A DNA stretch of 64,000 nucleotides from an uncultured Oligoflexia bacterium (GTDB lineage Bacteria; Bdellovibrionota; Bacteriovoracia; Bacteriovoracales; Bacteriovoracaceae), in NCBI GenBank assembly GCA_913058265.1, contig CAJXPQ010000001.1:1-64000 (forward strand), in the 5' to 3' direction. Shown here in pieces: positions 11,005-31,522 of this stretch; the first letter of the stretch is position 1; each line of letters starts with the position of its first letter. The position numbers were made by a program, and so were the translations under genes. A model generated the notes under the pieces. That model was not told where the DNA came from, did no database searches, and saw only the letters and a program-made list of their open reading frames with translations.

Positions 11005-11142
11005 AAAGTGCTCCTTTAAATTAGCTACCTAACTAAGATAGTGTGTGTATTTTAAACGTCAAGCCTAGGATTTTAGATTGTAATTTGGCATAGAAAAATA
11101 TATTGTTTTTTCACTGTTTCACCTTTGAAAACGAGTAGACGC

Positions 11143-12348
11143 ATGGCACAATTAACATTAATGATCCTCTCTTCTCTACTAATATTTATGCAAAGTTCTC
11201 ACGCAGATACGATTAAAGTCCTTCACTACAATATCAAAGAACTTGACTCTCAAAAGTTAAATCAAAGCAATGAGCAAGTGAAGAATGTAAAATCCATTAC
11301 AGATAATTACGATTTCGATATTCTTTCTATAAATGAACTTCAGTACGATTTAACAGGTGTCCCTAATGACAGCTTTAAGACTGATGGAGAAAATCTAGAT
11401 AAATTGGCAAAACTCCTGGGCTTAAAGCCAAATGTTACGGTTTTTGGACCAGCAAATACTGGAATGAATGCGAGAATAGGTCCTAATGGCGAGTATTACA
11501 GAAATGCCAACTCAGCTGAGGCGAGAAGCCATGCCGACCAACTGAACTTTGGAACTATGCCAGGACAATACTCCACAGGGGCGATGCTAATAAACGGAAA
11601 ACTACTCTCTACAAAAATTATCTCTAAGCTTAAGTGGAAGGACTTTAATTCTTCAGCTGATTTTAGTGAATTTAAAACAGCAGATGGAAAATCAATACCT
11701 GAAGATATGCTTCTTTTTGATAAAAACTTTACCCATATGAAGATAGAATTTAAAGCAAAGGAAGTTCATGTCCTTCTACTTCACACTGTACCATCTTATT
11801 ATTTTGGCAATAAGTTCTCTATCAATGACTACCGCAATGCTGAACAGCTAAGGTTTATGGAATGGTACATGACAGGCTCAACAGACTTCAAGGTGCAACT
11901 TAAAAGCATAACCCCCATAAATGAAAAAAAATACATTATCGCTGTTGGCGATCTAAACGTTGCACCGACAGAATCTGGCGGCGAAGGATCTCTGGTCATA
12001 AATAACTTGATTAAAAAAGCTACCCCTTGGATCAAGAAGTCTGCCATGAATTTCACGAGTGAATCCAGTGGCTACCGAAAAGACCCAAATCGCTTTATGC
12101 TAGACTATATTTTCACAAGTAAGTTACTTAAGCCTGTTAAAGGAAAAATAATTCACCCCAATTTTGAATGGATCGATGCTGAATGCGCGGGAGAGGAAGA
12201 ATCAAAAAATCCCACCCCAAATATCTATGCAAAAATCCTCTTCAAGAAAGGAACCAAAGACTGTTATGCCTATACACGACATGATTATGTCACATTAAAA
12301 AAAGCGAGTGATCATTACCCAATTTATGGAGAATTTGAATTTTTATGA
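11143..12348 (+). CDS. secreted endonuclease/exonuclease/phosphatase (EEP) family protein
   Basis: DNase I-like fold protein with a signal peptide (MAQLTLMILSSLLIFMQSSHA). Catalytic motifs appear in order: LHYNIKEL (Asn), SINELQYD (Glu, metal), LLHTVPSY (His), AVGDLNVAP (Asp/Asn) and C-terminal ASDHYPIYGEF (Asp-His). I prefer ATG 11143 over the in-frame TTG at 11125 because a GAG lies at a workable distance and the signal peptide then has a normal n-region. It could be an exported nuclease or a phosphodiesterase. Its stop overlaps the next start as ATGA. Confidence 0.78.
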   Translation: MAQLTLMILSSLLIFMQSSHADTIKVLHYNIKELDSQKLNQSNEQVKNVKSITDNYDFDILSINELQYDLTGVPNDSFKTDGENLDKLAKLLGLKPNVTVFGPANTGMNARIGPNGEYYRNANSAEARSHADQLNFGTMPGQYSTGAMLINGKLLSTKIISKLKWKDFNSSADFSEFKTADGKSIPEDMLLFDKNFTHMKIEFKAKEVHVLLLHTVPSYYFGNKFSINDYRNAEQLRFMEWYMTGSTDFKVQLKSITPINEKKYIIAVGDLNVAPTESGGEGSLVINNLIKKATPWIKKSAMNFTSESSGYRKDPNRFMLDYIFTSKLLKPVKGKIIHPNFEWIDAECAGEEESKNPTPNIYAKILFKKGTKDCYAYTRHDYVTLKKASDHYPIYGEFEFL

Positions 12349-26752: not shown

Positions 26753-27106
26753 ATGAAAACGATTTATCTATATTTAAAAAACCAATACTTGTACATTTTG
26801 ACTGCTGTTGTTTTTATAATCGCCCCATTTACTGCATGTGTAACATATCTACCTGAGATTCCACATACACAATATTTGTTTTTGATTGTACTCGTCTTAG
26901 TTAAGTTGTTAGTCTTCAACGATCACCATAGAAAGCAAAAGCTAAAAACAAGAGTTACAAATGAGTTAACCAAAGAGATGGGTAAGCCACCAAGCACTAA
27001 AATTATCTTTAAAAGAAATCAATTTTATCTTTTATCTAGAGATATAACGATTATGCTGACAGGGCTTTACTTGATCATTTTCAGCATACTATTTAATCGA
27101 TTTTAG
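26753..27106 (+). CDS. small integral membrane protein
   Basis: A 117-residue protein with three hydrophobic segments (residues ~12-30, ~40-57 and ~95-113) separated by a basic region (NDHHRKQKLKTRVTNELTK). No family is recognised. It lies just downstream of the pseudogene and converges with the NADAR gene, overlapping it by 14 bases. It appears intact and is probably expressed, but a function cannot be given. Confidence 0.55.
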   Translation: MKTIYLYLKNQYLYILTAVVFIIAPFTACVTYLPEIPHTQYLFLIVLVLVKLLVFNDHHRKQKLKTRVTNELTKEMGKPPSTKIIFKRNQFYLLSRDITIMLTGLYLIIFSILFNRF

Positions 27107-27755
27107 AATCACGGATATCCATCAAAATTTTATGATAGAAGTATGACTTTGGTTTATTCGCACCTTGCTTATGATCTGGCATAAGCTTTAAGCCTTTTGT
27201 TTGGTTTAGAAGTCTTAGCATGTTTTTATCCGCCATCACTTTAGCAAGTATTGCTCGCTTCATAATTTGGTAATGATACTCGGATCCAACGGCGTGATCT
27301 TTATAATCAAATGTTTTTTTCTGGTAACTTATAATACTCTTTAAATCATACTTTTTATTTATAACATTTGCGGCGTCACCAGCTCTCTTGGATTCAAAAC
27401 CAGACAAAAGGTATACTTGTTCACGAGTAAAAGGAAATTCACTAGCAAAGTCCATACGAACATCATTAGTATCTGAAAAATCTGGATACTTCATCATCTG
27501 CCAAAGTGCTTCCACAGAGTTATAGTGGATACCATCTAATTTAAACGGAGCGTATGCAAGATTACTAAAAACACCAAGCTCGTTACGTTTTGAGAGAATC
27601 AACTCTCCATTTTTGGCCTCATGAGGAAGTATCTCCCAGCTACCCTGCCTTTGAGTTTCAGGTATTTGCTCCCACCAATGAGTGGGATAATCAGCCTGCA
27701 TAGTTGCGCAGGCGACATTAGAAATCAGAGTTAAGGATAGAAAGAATGAACGCAT
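27093..27755 (-). CDS. exported NADAR-domain protein
   Basis: A 220-residue protein with a signal peptide (MRSFFLSLTLISNVACA); the NVAC sequence could be a weak lipobox. The rest is a NADAR (YbiA/DUF1768) domain: GVFSNLAYAPFKLDG, YNSVEALWQMMKY with the conserved Glu, then KRAGDAANVINKK and a DRLL-like C-terminal helix. NADAR enzymes act on N-glycosidic bonds of nucleotide derivatives, and some remove ADP-ribose from guanine. They are normally cytoplasmic, so an export signal is unusual. It lies two bases after the EEP gene, in one operon. Confidence 0.75.
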   Translation of the reverse strand: MRSFFLSLTLISNVACATMQADYPTHWWEQIPETQRQGSWEILPHEAKNGELILSKRNELGVFSNLAYAPFKLDGIHYNSVEALWQMMKYPDFSDTNDVRMDFASEFPFTREQVYLLSGFESKRAGDAANVINKKYDLKSIISYQKKTFDYKDHAVGSEYHYQIMKRAILAKVMADKNMLRLLNQTKGLKLMPDHKQGANKPKSYFYHKILMDIRDSKID

Positions 27756-27757
27756 AA

Positions 27758-28834
27758 TTATAATTTAAATTCTACAGCAACTGGAAGGTGATCAGAGAAA
27801 CCAGAACCTGTTAATGGATCGAATCTAGCAGGAATATTTTCTGAGATATTGGTGTTTCCAGTGTCTGTATCTTGCCACTCTAAGTCTTTAACCATAAATG
27901 GAAGATAGACAATATCGAAGGCACTATAATTAACACTTATGCCTTTTTTAGTTAGTGATTTTTTAGCAACAAAAATCTTATCTAGTGATTCCCAGTTACC
28001 TCTCCACCAGTGAGTCCCATCAACAACAACATTACTCATGCGACGCCCTTGAACTTCAACGTCCTCATAAATAGGAAGAACGTTAAGAGTAATACCATTA
28101 AGGGCATCATCAGAAGAAGTATTAAAATCACCTGTTGCAATAACTAGATCTGATTTTGATTTTGCAGTGGCTTCTTTTAATACGTTTGAAGCAATTACTC
28201 TAGCTTCATCTGGATTTGCCTGACTTGGCCAATGATTACCAAAAACAGTAACTGACTTACGACCAACTTTATAATTTACTTCAAGAATACCTCTAGTACT
28301 TCTAGTACTATGAGGAGCAAGATTGATTGTATGATATTTCTGAGATTTAACTGGATACTTTGAAATCATACCAACATCAATCCCTCTGGAGTCGGGGCCA
28401 TCAAATAAAGTGATATATGAGTAGCCCTTGCTTTTTAAACCTTTAGAGACAAGCATTTTTAAAACATTAAGATTTTCTACTTCTTGAAATACAAGGATAT
28501 CAGCTCCCTTTCCTTTGTTATAAGAAAGAATAACTTTTGCCATATTTTTAATTTTTTTTCTTAGAACTGAGTTTGACCAGTCAAGACCAAGGCATGATTT
28601 CTTGTAGTATTCGTTAGAAAGGCCATTACAGTAAGCTTGTACTTCAGCTGATGAATTCTTTACTTTTAAAGGAAGGTACGTCCAATCTTTTTTACCTTTG
28701 TCGTGTTTGGTATCAAAAAGATTTTCAAGGTTATAAGTCATAACAGACAGAGTTGTTCTTTTTGCGTTTGAACCACTACTAAATGCTGAAAGTGAAAATA
28801 ATAAGACTAAAACGCTTGCTAATAATTTTGTCAT
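27758..28834 (-). CDS. secreted EEP-family nuclease/phosphatase
   Basis: A 358-residue DNase I-fold protein with signal peptide MTKLLASVLVLLFSLSAFSS. Motifs in order: MTYNLENLFD (Asn), LVFQEVENL (Glu), DVGMISKYP, VFGNHWPSQ (His), IATGDFNTS (Asp, Asn), GTHWWRGNW and the final SDHLPVAVEF. All catalytic positions are present, so it is probably an active extracytoplasmic nuclease. ATG 28834 is chosen over the longer frame from 28870 because AGGA lies five bases upstream and the signal peptide then begins properly. It is co-directional with the NADAR gene. Confidence 0.85.
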   Translation of the reverse strand: MTKLLASVLVLLFSLSAFSSGSNAKRTTLSVMTYNLENLFDTKHDKGKKDWTYLPLKVKNSSAEVQAYCNGLSNEYYKKSCLGLDWSNSVLRKKIKNMAKVILSYNKGKGADILVFQEVENLNVLKMLVSKGLKSKGYSYITLFDGPDSRGIDVGMISKYPVKSQKYHTINLAPHSTRSTRGILEVNYKVGRKSVTVFGNHWPSQANPDEARVIASNVLKEATAKSKSDLVIATGDFNTSSDDALNGITLNVLPIYEDVEVQGRRMSNVVVDGTHWWRGNWESLDKIFVAKKSLTKKGISVNYSAFDIVYLPFMVKDLEWQDTDTGNTNISENIPARFDPLTGSGFSDHLPVAVEFKL

Positions 28835-28979: not shown

Positions 28980-29002
28980 GACGCGACTTATTAAGCCGCG
29001 TC
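28980..29002 (-). terminator. possible terminator at the end of the UDG-like gene
   Basis: Bases 28980-28989 and 28993-29002 form a 10-bp stem (one G-U pair) with a 3-base loop. The hairpin covers the last codons and stop of the UDG-like gene. On the minus strand only a short TTTAG follows, so it may act as a weak terminator or as a 3' stabilising structure. Confidence 0.5.
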
Positions 29003-31522
29003 ATTAGAATTATTATTTAGTTCAATCATATTTTCTATATTTAGAATCAAAGCTTTATCTGCATTTTCTATTCTTTTAAGATACTTTGGAATAGATTCGT
29101 AAGGTAGTGGAAGACCATTAGATTCTAGAACTTCTATTAACTTACTAACACCAGATTTTTGTGAACTACTCATTTTAAGCTCTTGCTTGTATGCCCAACT
29201 TGGAACAACCTCTGCAAATGCCAATCCTTTATATTTAATTCCATCAGATGTGATTACTCTATCACCAGAAGTACCTTCCCAGATTCTTGAGTAAAAACTT
29301 AGGTGAGATCTAGGGATATTTTCCATTCGTGCTTTAAATTCACCACTAACAGAGAAGATATTTCTACTTTTAATCTCGGCAACTACATCTGTAATACCTG
29401 AGCTAGCAAGATTACCTCTAGAGATGGTAACAACTTTTATCTTTCTATCTCCAACAATTCTCTTAATGGATTTAGCTGCACTCGCACCGTCAGCAATAAT
29501 AAGTTTTGTATTTCCTTTATCAAGAACAGTATTAATCATATTCTCTCTATATTCTTCTGTTTGGGATAAAACAGCATCCCACTCTTTCTCATTTGCCCCA
29601 TCCATTCCAAATGGGACCGTTTTTAAAACAAGGTAATCATCAGCAATATTTAAAGCATCCATCGCACTTTGCAAGTATTGACCTCTAGAACCTGTTAATG
29701 CACGGGCCGTAACTAGGTCATCAACACCATGTGGGTCCGCTAAGATAAGAACCTTAGCATTATCAAATTTTCCACGGTAATGACCAAAGTCTGAAACACT
29801 TGGATGAGTTTTGATATTATAAGCATCGATACCATCTTTATCAAAAGACATCTGACGGACAGTTTTCTCTTCTGAGTCGGCACAGTTAACTTCAGAGATA
29901 TTATCCACTAAAGAAACTTCAGCTCTTGAAGTCACTTTACCATCTTCATCTTCACAACTAACTTCTGATTTCTCTGTATAAATTGAATCAAAGTCTAAGC
30001 TTGTAATCATTAACTTTGCCATCTCAGCTCCTGGACCAGCATCGAATACATAGCGAGATTTTTTAGCAGAAGGTCTAGCAATAAATAGTTGATCTTCCTC
30101 TATTCCAAAAGCTGCTCTAGCATTAGTCATCTCTTTGATCGCTGATTTAGAAAATTTACCATTATCTCTTGTTCCGATAATAACAACGTTTGCGTTTACA
30201 CTCATACGCTTAGCGGTAGACTTAGAAACCATTCTATTTGCTGGTGTACCAAAGTCATAAAACTCTGGACCGATATCTGATCTACCATATTGGTAATTCT
30301 CACCTTTAGCATAAAAATTTACTTTTCGTGGATCAGCTTCAATTTCCCATCCATCTTTTGCATATTTTTCTAACTTCTTTACATCTCTCATAACTCTTTT
30401 AGAAGCGGCAATTAAACCTTCAGCATATGAACCAGCATCCATAACTGTTCGAGAAAGACTAGAAGGATGCGGCAATGAAACAACAATAATATCATTTTCG
30501 ATAATTGTTCCATCGTCTAACATTAATCCTTTTAAAGATCTTGTGGTAACACCATTAACGTTCATTCTATCAAGATCATAACCCCCTAGCTGGGCAGGGT
30601 TTAACATTCCATTCTTATGTTCTCCACCTTTTGTAAAAACCATTTCTTTTAAATATTCATCAAGGTTGGCCTTAAGATGTGAAACAACTGCTTTCTGATC
30701 TTTAGATTTTGTGTAATCTAGCTTTCTTCCTAGCATTTTTTCATATAAGTCACGGCCATCTTTTCCAACAAGACTTGGAAAAGTATTATTACCACCAGCA
30801 TACTCAATTTTAGTTTCAGCAATTTGAATTTGATCTAGTTTCTTATCATTTCTAGTTCCTACTGTGGCCCCTTTTGATCGAGCATATGTAGCAACAGCGT
30901 CTCTTGCAGCACCACCAAAAAGAACAATAAGCTTCATGGAATCTTTATTATTTCTAATAATCCAATCTACAAGATTATTTCTCCACTTAACGATTGGAGA
31001 TTCAAGATTATTTGATATCGCCCAAAAGTTATTGTCTACATAGTTGGCCATTTGAACTTTTGATTTATCACCTTTAGTCACTATATAAGGAGTATTATAA
31101 ACTCCATACTGACCCTTAATCGTGAATGAATAAGCATTTAAGAAGGCAGCACCTTCATTTACTCCAAAGTAATTGGCAAAGTCTTGTGCTCTACCACCGA
31201 AACCTGCAGTTGCTGGTCTACCGGCGGCCTCAGCTATATGAGTACCGTCTTGTCCCATAAAAAGTATCTTTACGGCGTTCTTCTCTTGTAACATTCTCCA
31301 AGGAATAGGGCCGAAAGCTGGTCTAAACTTTTGCTTTCTACCTACAATCTCTCTTGAAATAGAAGGCATATCTGGAATACTAGCTGTAATATCAATTAAC
31401 TCTCTACCCATCTCTGTTTGAGGGTCAGGACCTGCATCATATGACCAGAGGGGCAACTCTGCTTGAGCTAGAGGTGACACGGCAAAAGCCATTGAGAGTG
31501 TTAGGGATACAAATTTTCTCAT
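28991..31522 (-). CDS. exported protein with two uracil-DNA-glycosylase-like domains
   Basis: An 843-residue protein with signal peptide MRKFVSLTLSMAFAVSPLAQA. Domain 1 resembles UDG family 4/5: strand and loop KILFMGQDGTHIAEAAGRP..AGFGG at 85-109, LIVLFGGAARDAV at ~198-210 and an HPS motif (VSLPHPSSLS, 352-354) like UDG motif B. A second similar block starts near residue 588 (KVLILADPHGVDD...ALTGSRGQYLQ, then KLIIADGASAAKSI). ATG 31522 has AGGAA seven bases upstream; the ORF extends to 31591 without a signal peptide. Export of a DNA-glycosylase fold is very unusual. Activity on uracil is not shown. Confidence 0.75.
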   Translation of the reverse strand: MRKFVSLTLSMAFAVSPLAQAELPLWSYDAGPDPQTEMGRELIDITASIPDMPSISREIVGRKQKFRPAFGPIPWRMLQEKNAVKILFMGQDGTHIAEAAGRPATAGFGGRAQDFANYFGVNEGAAFLNAYSFTIKGQYGVYNTPYIVTKGDKSKVQMANYVDNNFWAISNNLESPIVKWRNNLVDWIIRNNKDSMKLIVLFGGAARDAVATYARSKGATVGTRNDKKLDQIQIAETKIEYAGGNNTFPSLVGKDGRDLYEKMLGRKLDYTKSKDQKAVVSHLKANLDEYLKEMVFTKGGEHKNGMLNPAQLGGYDLDRMNVNGVTTRSLKGLMLDDGTIIENDIIVVSLPHPSSLSRTVMDAGSYAEGLIAASKRVMRDVKKLEKYAKDGWEIEADPRKVNFYAKGENYQYGRSDIGPEFYDFGTPANRMVSKSTAKRMSVNANVVIIGTRDNGKFSKSAIKEMTNARAAFGIEEDQLFIARPSAKKSRYVFDAGPGAEMAKLMITSLDFDSIYTEKSEVSCEDEDGKVTSRAEVSLVDNISEVNCADSEEKTVRQMSFDKDGIDAYNIKTHPSVSDFGHYRGKFDNAKVLILADPHGVDDLVTARALTGSRGQYLQSAMDALNIADDYLVLKTVPFGMDGANEKEWDAVLSQTEEYRENMINTVLDKGNTKLIIADGASAAKSIKRIVGDRKIKVVTISRGNLASSGITDVVAEIKSRNIFSVSGEFKARMENIPRSHLSFYSRIWEGTSGDRVITSDGIKYKGLAFAEVVPSWAYKQELKMSSSQKSGVSKLIEVLESNGLPLPYESIPKYLKRIENADKALILNIENMIELNNNSNDAA

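Follow-up and report, generated by a model that had tools for sequence, protein, structure and literature searches.

A predicted exported protein with two uracil-DNA glycosylase folds in a Bdellovibrionota bacterium, and its putative partners in nucleic acid or nucleotide breakdown

The window analyzed here, a stretch of 64,000 nucleotides from an uncultured Oligoflexia bacterium, contains a gene for a protein with a predicted Sec signal and two uracil-DNA glycosylase (UDG)-fold domains. We propose, with a probability of about one half, that this protein is an exported and internally duplicated glycosylase of the BdiUng type, active through its N-terminal domain and belonging to a set of enzymes for nucleic acid or nucleotide breakdown. 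Within this set, it would most likely act outside the cytoplasm as an N-glycosylase that uses a single active site. To our knowledge, UDG-fold enzymes are regarded as intracellular repair proteins or, lately, as intracellular defence proteins, and no report of an exported UDG was found in the open-access papers searched. The features of the gene and its neighbors are collected in Table 1.

Table 1. Position in the window of the tandem UDG-fold gene, its domains and motifs, and the adjoining genes
Feature	Position	Strand	Evidence
Tandem UDG-fold protein with signal peptide, 843 aa	28991..31522	-	ORF, Pfam, AlphaFold, Foldseek, HHalign
Predicted Sec signal peptide, residues 1-21; AQA/E cleavage site by eye	31460..31522	-	Sequence; signals in Bdellovibrionota homologues
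N-terminal domain of UDG fold, approximately residues 22-502, including family insertions	30017..31459	-	BdiUng profile E 1.5e-20; homologous to C-domain
N-domain motif A GQDGTH, residues 90-95	31238..31255	-	Acid at 92 D or E in 56/56
N-domain Asn129, equivalent to the Asn that contacts uracil in UDGs	31136..31138	-	56/56
N-domain motif B HPS, residues 352-354	30461..30469	-	His and Pro 57/57
C-terminal UDG-fold domain, modelled as residues 562-815	29078..29839	-	PF03167 above gathering; pLDDT 90.4; BdiUng E 1.7e-12
C-domain motif A counterpart ADPHG, residues 595-599	29726..29740	-	Asp596 55/55, position of family-4 Glu
C-domain GTSGD loop, residues 750-754; HP motif B absent	29261..29275	-	Alignment
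EEP-family nuclease/phosphatase (PF19580), 358 aa, signal-bearing, directly downstream of UDG gene	27758..28834	-	Pfam; linkage; active-site residues
NADAR/gp30.3-like N-glycosidase, 220 aa, signal-bearing, start 2 bases after EEP stop	27093..27755	-	Weak Pfam/NCBIfam matches; residues; co-occurrence

The Protein Is an Internal Duplication of a BdiUng-Type Fold

The Pfam UDG model PF03167 matched residues 586-749 above its gathering score (29.5 versus 24.3 bits) and gave a match at E<=0.01 in 40 of the 57 homologues; the N-terminal half lacked a Pfam match because it is too divergent. When the family profile of the N-domain was compared with BdiUng (Blr0248, PDB 5gn2), E values of 2.8e-20 and 1.5e-20 were obtained. 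The mature protein was modelled with AlphaFold using 57 homologues (mean pLDDT 94.8, pTM 0.92), and a Foldseek search with the whole model returned BdiUng as the top PDB match (E 8e-10), followed by UdgX, family-4 UDGs, SMUG1, and TDG. Since the match table of the whole model does not say which half matched, the C-domain was also modelled alone (residues 562-815, pLDDT 90.4), and BdiUng was again its top PDB match (E 1.7e-12 over 252 columns, TM 0.66/0.62). Both the whole model and the C-domain model have the UDG alpha/beta/alpha fold. The two halves matched each other by HHalign with a probability of 97% (E 2.8e-11), and the middle region of the protein gave no match in the HHalign comparison. 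Since the halves are homologous and both are BdiUng-like, the protein contains a UDG fold of the BdiUng type in internally duplicated form. Profiles, AlphaFold models, Foldseek, and the alignment of one half against the other thus bore out the two UDG-fold domains of the original prediction, and a chance motif match was ruled out by profile, structure, and internal homology. In a separate observation, several phage family-A DNA polymerases were among the BFVD matches to the UDG fold, and PDB 9qhs is a further such match, which suggests UDG-like domains fused to polymerases.

Family 4/5 UDGs had been named in connection with the protein; its nearest class is instead BdiUng, a broad-specificity class, with Blr0248 being the closest relative in both sequence and structure. 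The motif A is GQDGTH and not the GE[A/G]PG or GLAPG of families 4 and 5, the FeS cysteines are missing (the only two cysteines, Cys 523 and 547, lie in a window-specific insertion), and structure matches to family 4 UDG/UdgX are weaker (E about 1e-5), which ruled out the family 4/5 assignment. Family 4 UDG and UdgX have the same fold, the stretch from motif A to GRP aligns gaplessly by eye, and the acid of the C-domain sits at the position of the family-4 Glu; however, the window protein lacks the R-loop KRRIH. BdiUng of Bradyrhizobium diazoefficiens, which we take to be a dimer, shares the GQD motif A and the conserved Asn counterpart, but it is a single 272-aa chain of one domain, whereas the window protein has two copies per chain and, in addition, large insertions, a motif B of the form HP[S/T/G], and a signal for export. 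BdiUng-like enzymes have a wide base specificity (PMC8307549).

The N-Domain Keeps a Canonical Active Site and the C-Domain an Altered One

In the N-domain, G90, Q91, the acid at position 92 (Asp in 31 rows and Glu in 25), N129, H352, and P353 were invariant over 56-57 alignment rows reaching down to 22% identity with the query. This domain therefore has the motif A acid, the base-contacting Asn, and the motif B His (D/E92, N129, and H352) at the positions described for UDGs (PMC10359453). The original coordinates of the gene and its motifs were accurate: the ORF spans exactly 28991-31522, HPS lies at 352-354, LIVLFG forms a strand around residues 198-204, and the beginning of the second block falls at about 586-599. 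The motif A region that had been proposed proved to contain GQDGTH at residues 90-95. In the C-domain, the Asn position is mostly occupied by Lys or Arg (K/R634) and there is no HP motif; on the other hand, R738 is invariant and a W-x-G-T-S-G loop is conserved. Since the set is complete in the N-domain and altered, yet conserved, in the C-domain, the protein has one canonical and one altered site. The second similar block noted earlier is thus a genuine UDG fold, although the two domains are not equivalent, the canonical active site being complete in the N-domain only.

Residue 104 is presumably the counterpart of the uracil-stacking Phe54 of Thermus UDG, according to a gapless alignment by eye. 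Most members of the long subfamily, the window protein (Ala104) among them, have Ala or Gly here; the short subfamily has Phe, as do loci L072 and L100. Because Ala104 occupies the uracil-stacking position, the predicted substrate is either a base that exceeds uracil in size or a wide variety of bases, and the base pocket would be larger or broader in the long subfamily. The Ala104/Phe104 split between subfamilies yields a direct prediction of specificity.

The altered C-domain, without the Asn and the HP motif, and the occurrence of membrane-anchored lipoproteins among the homologues would suit an exported binding or scaffold protein whose catalysis has been lost or changed and which binds DNA or nucleobases, for instance in uptake, biofilm, or surface attachment. 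We consider this unlikely, since the canonical polar catalytic residues of the N-domain are kept without exception over very divergent sequences and the linked genes code for enzymes with intact active sites (see below).

Predicted Export and Distribution of the Family

The ATG start codon of the gene is preceded 5' by a ribosome-binding site (CAGGAA), and the signal peptide, read directly from the sequence, is MRKFVSLTLSMAFAVSPLAQA followed by Glu. The hydrophobic N-terminus agreed with the signal peptide first proposed, and this type of signal is conserved in Bdellovibrionota, in kind and not in sequence. Both features whose absence would have spoken against the original prediction, a UDG fold and a signal peptide, were thus found, and export is predicted. 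The same genome has a family-1 Ung (C3:152150) that shares with the N-domain the GQD acid position and the HPS motif B, but this enzyme is canonical (GQDPYH and HPSPLS), has one domain, and lacks a signal peptide. House-keeping repair is therefore covered by a separate enzyme, and this, together with the ribosome-binding site before the start codon of the signal, ruled out a house-keeping repair enzyme misread as exported. The net charge of the mature protein is 0 (+6 for residues 22-402), unlike that of many DNA binders, which are strongly basic, and this speaks against the proposed activity.

The UDG gene is patchily distributed, being present in 58 of the 242 Bdellovibrionota genomes. Full-length homologues from this phylum have a hydrophobic signal at the N-terminus, which in a sizeable share of them includes a lipobox, and tandem proteins from Acidimicrobiia, Dehalococcoidia, and Woeseiaceae records start directly at the conserved domain; the signal is absent in the tandem relatives outside Bdellovibrionota of L098, L099, L102, L120, L121, and L122. 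In a maximum-likelihood tree, the eight non-exported rows formed one supported clade within the short subfamily, and since the tree was midpoint-rooted, the direction of the change in export is not settled. Most sequences come from metagenome bins and taxon labels outside Bdellovibrionota carry a risk of contamination, which is made less likely by a two-gene order that is identical in eight loci. No relatives were found in phages, plasmids, or viral contigs, nor single-domain relatives in plasmids; a mobile or phage origin was ruled out by the absence of phage, plasmid, and viral-contig relatives.

Linked EEP and NADAR-Like Genes

The EEP gene adjoins the UDG gene in the window and in L084, L089, L091, L093, and L094, and the trio of UDG, EEP, and NADAR-like genes also occurs, in another orientation, in L089, L091, and L094. 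The EEP active-site residues N35, E37, E118, H201, D236, N238, D348, and H349 are invariant. The UDG stop codon is followed by a gap of about 157 bases with a possible hairpin, so that a single transcript for the three genes is not established. Since EEP genes of the general kind are common (135 of the 242 genomes), only the linked EEP subfamily was counted, and general EEP co-occurrence was dropped as evidence. Another exported protein, at 11125-12348 of the window and not near the UDG set, resembles an EEP-type enzyme by eye.

The NADAR-like protein of the window scored under the curated cut-offs (22.9 versus 35.1 bits in Pfam and 29.9 versus 73.7 in NCBIfam), and family membership is therefore not claimed. 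All nine NADAR-like sequences matched PF08719 and PF08010 weakly, with E82, K89, and D194-H195 invariant in them. The E-x6-K spacing of E82/K89 is the same as in NADAR/YbiA/gp30.3 proteins, the catalytic residues of E. coli C7 NADAR being E88/K95 (PMC11543638); unlike these, the window protein is predicted to be exported, and a terminal PDH replaces the usual last-strand motif. This divergent exported NADAR/gp30.3-like family was present in 80 of the 242 Bdellovibrionota genomes, some of them without the UDG gene.

Among these 242 genomes, 54 carried both the UDG gene (58 genomes) and the NADAR-like gene (80 genomes; Fisher p 5e-29), and by genus the NADAR-like gene was found in 38 of the 40 UDG-carrying genera (p 6e-23), p-values that are inflated by genome relatedness and corrected only in part by collapsing to genera. 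Pairs no more than 5 kb apart were formed by UDG and NADAR-like genes in seven genomes, by UDG and EEP in five, by EEP and NADAR-like in 12 (in 11 of which 35 bases or fewer separate the two), and by UDG and the amidohydrolase described below in 13. The NADAR-like and EEP genes are thus often one unit that co-occurs with the UDG gene, even when the latter lies elsewhere. None of ten non-Bdellovibrionota genomes contained the NADAR-like gene, and it is therefore not known as part of the cytoplasmic version of the set.

An Amidohydrolase Linked to UDG Genes

In the short subfamily, an exported amidohydrolase is coded near or next to the UDG gene (L078, L079, L081, L083, L084, L087, L088, L090, L095, and L096), whereas the tandem UDG genes for cytoplasmic proteins have beside them a gene for a cytoplasmic amidohydrolase, in most cases as a fusion with an S41 peptidase-like domain. 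The location of the amidohydrolase therefore tracks that of the UDG, both being exported together or both staying inside. Its invariant residues H108 and H110 (HxH), H311, E314, H343, and D394 form a deaminase-type set, and among solved proteins it came closest to atrazine chlorohydrolase and MTA/SAH deaminase, while guanine deaminase ranked lower. The gene was present in 27 of the 242 Bdellovibrionota genomes, 25 of which had the UDG gene; no amidohydrolase of the UDG-linked set was found in the genome of the window, which weighs against the proposed set. A cytoplasmic amidohydrolase also adjoins the single-domain BdiUng-like genes L123:2446-3399 and L124:7225-8172, whose products have about 316 aa and an N-terminal extension. 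Literature on UDG-amidohydrolase neighborhoods, Bdellovibrio glycosylases, and secreted glycosylase effectors was searched, and nothing relevant was found.

Further genes were observed at these loci. Long amidohydrolase ORFs (about 1180-1310 aa) lie beside a BdiUng-type gene in L099 (L099:4453-8052), L101, L102, L103, L105, L120, L122, and L124; Pfam detected an S41/tricorn-like peptidase domain in that of L099, and in L098 the amidohydrolase and the S41-like part are separate ORFs. Two exported families without a Pfam match, represented by L096:11804-12361 (about 185 aa) and L096:12395-13285 (a lipoprotein of about 296 aa), separate the short UDG gene from the amidohydrolase gene in several loci.

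Of all partners, the amidohydrolase is the one found most constantly in different phyla, and it accompanies single-domain BdiUng-like proteins as well; this is in keeping with a metabolic enzyme that would hydrolyze the N-glycosidic bond of a nucleoside, nucleotide, or secondary metabolite and feed the amidohydrolase, leaving DNA untouched; NADAR relatives acting on riboflavin intermediates (PMC11125620) would fit as well. The best solved relatives of the protein are nevertheless DNA glycosylases, and we regard this proposal as improbable, slightly less likely than a binding or scaffold function.

Least likely of all is an extracytoplasmic anti-phage factor, excising modified bases from incoming phage DNA for the EEP enzyme to cut at abasic sites: the patchy distribution and the larger base pocket that A104 would give the long subfamily are compatible with it, cytoplasmic glycosylases are reported to act in this way against phages with modified bases, and a glycosylase defence against hydroxymethylcytosine phages is reported (PMC13160076), but no member of the set matched PADLOC models (the NADAR-like protein only at E 0.0096), which ruled out a known anti-phage defence system, no relatives came from phages, plasmids, or viral contigs, and no evident defence genes lie beside the UDG gene.

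Discussion

The genomic evidence points to a breakdown set over a stand-alone weapon. The attack on prey DNA suggested at first may occur, but none of the findings links the protein to prey in particular. In such a set of exported enzymes, the N-domain would act outside the cytoplasm, flipping a base out of DNA, another nucleic acid, or a nucleoside and hydrolyzing the N-glycosidic bond, with Asp92 probably serving to stabilize the water or the charge and Asn129 and His352 in binding of the base and leaving group. The C-domain would not perform standard uracil chemistry and may complete a pseudo-dimer with the N-domain, holding the substrate or setting specificity. The EEP enzyme would then cut the abasic product, the NADAR-like protein would strip N-linked groups such as ADP-ribosyl, and the freed bases would be deaminated by the amidohydrolase in those genomes that have it. 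Taken together, the set would break down or detoxify nucleic acid of foreign or prey origin. Instead of DNA, the enzyme might use a nucleotide or a modified nucleoside as its substrate.

A bolder extension of this proposal, which we put forward tentatively and hold to be doubtful, is that Bdellovibrionota possess a base-excision pathway outside the cytoplasm, in which exported glycosylase, EEP enzyme, NADAR-like protein, and deaminase unmake foreign or prey nucleic acid one base at a time; the glycosylase and the deaminase, which other phyla keep as a pair in the cytoplasm, would be used outside as a unit. The exported lineage is conserved, keeps an intact active site, and has an amidohydrolase predicted to be exported with it; if this is true, the fold works outside the cell's own genome. 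In this marine relative of Bdellovibrio, a chemistry known as intracellular DNA repair may thus act outside the cytoplasm.
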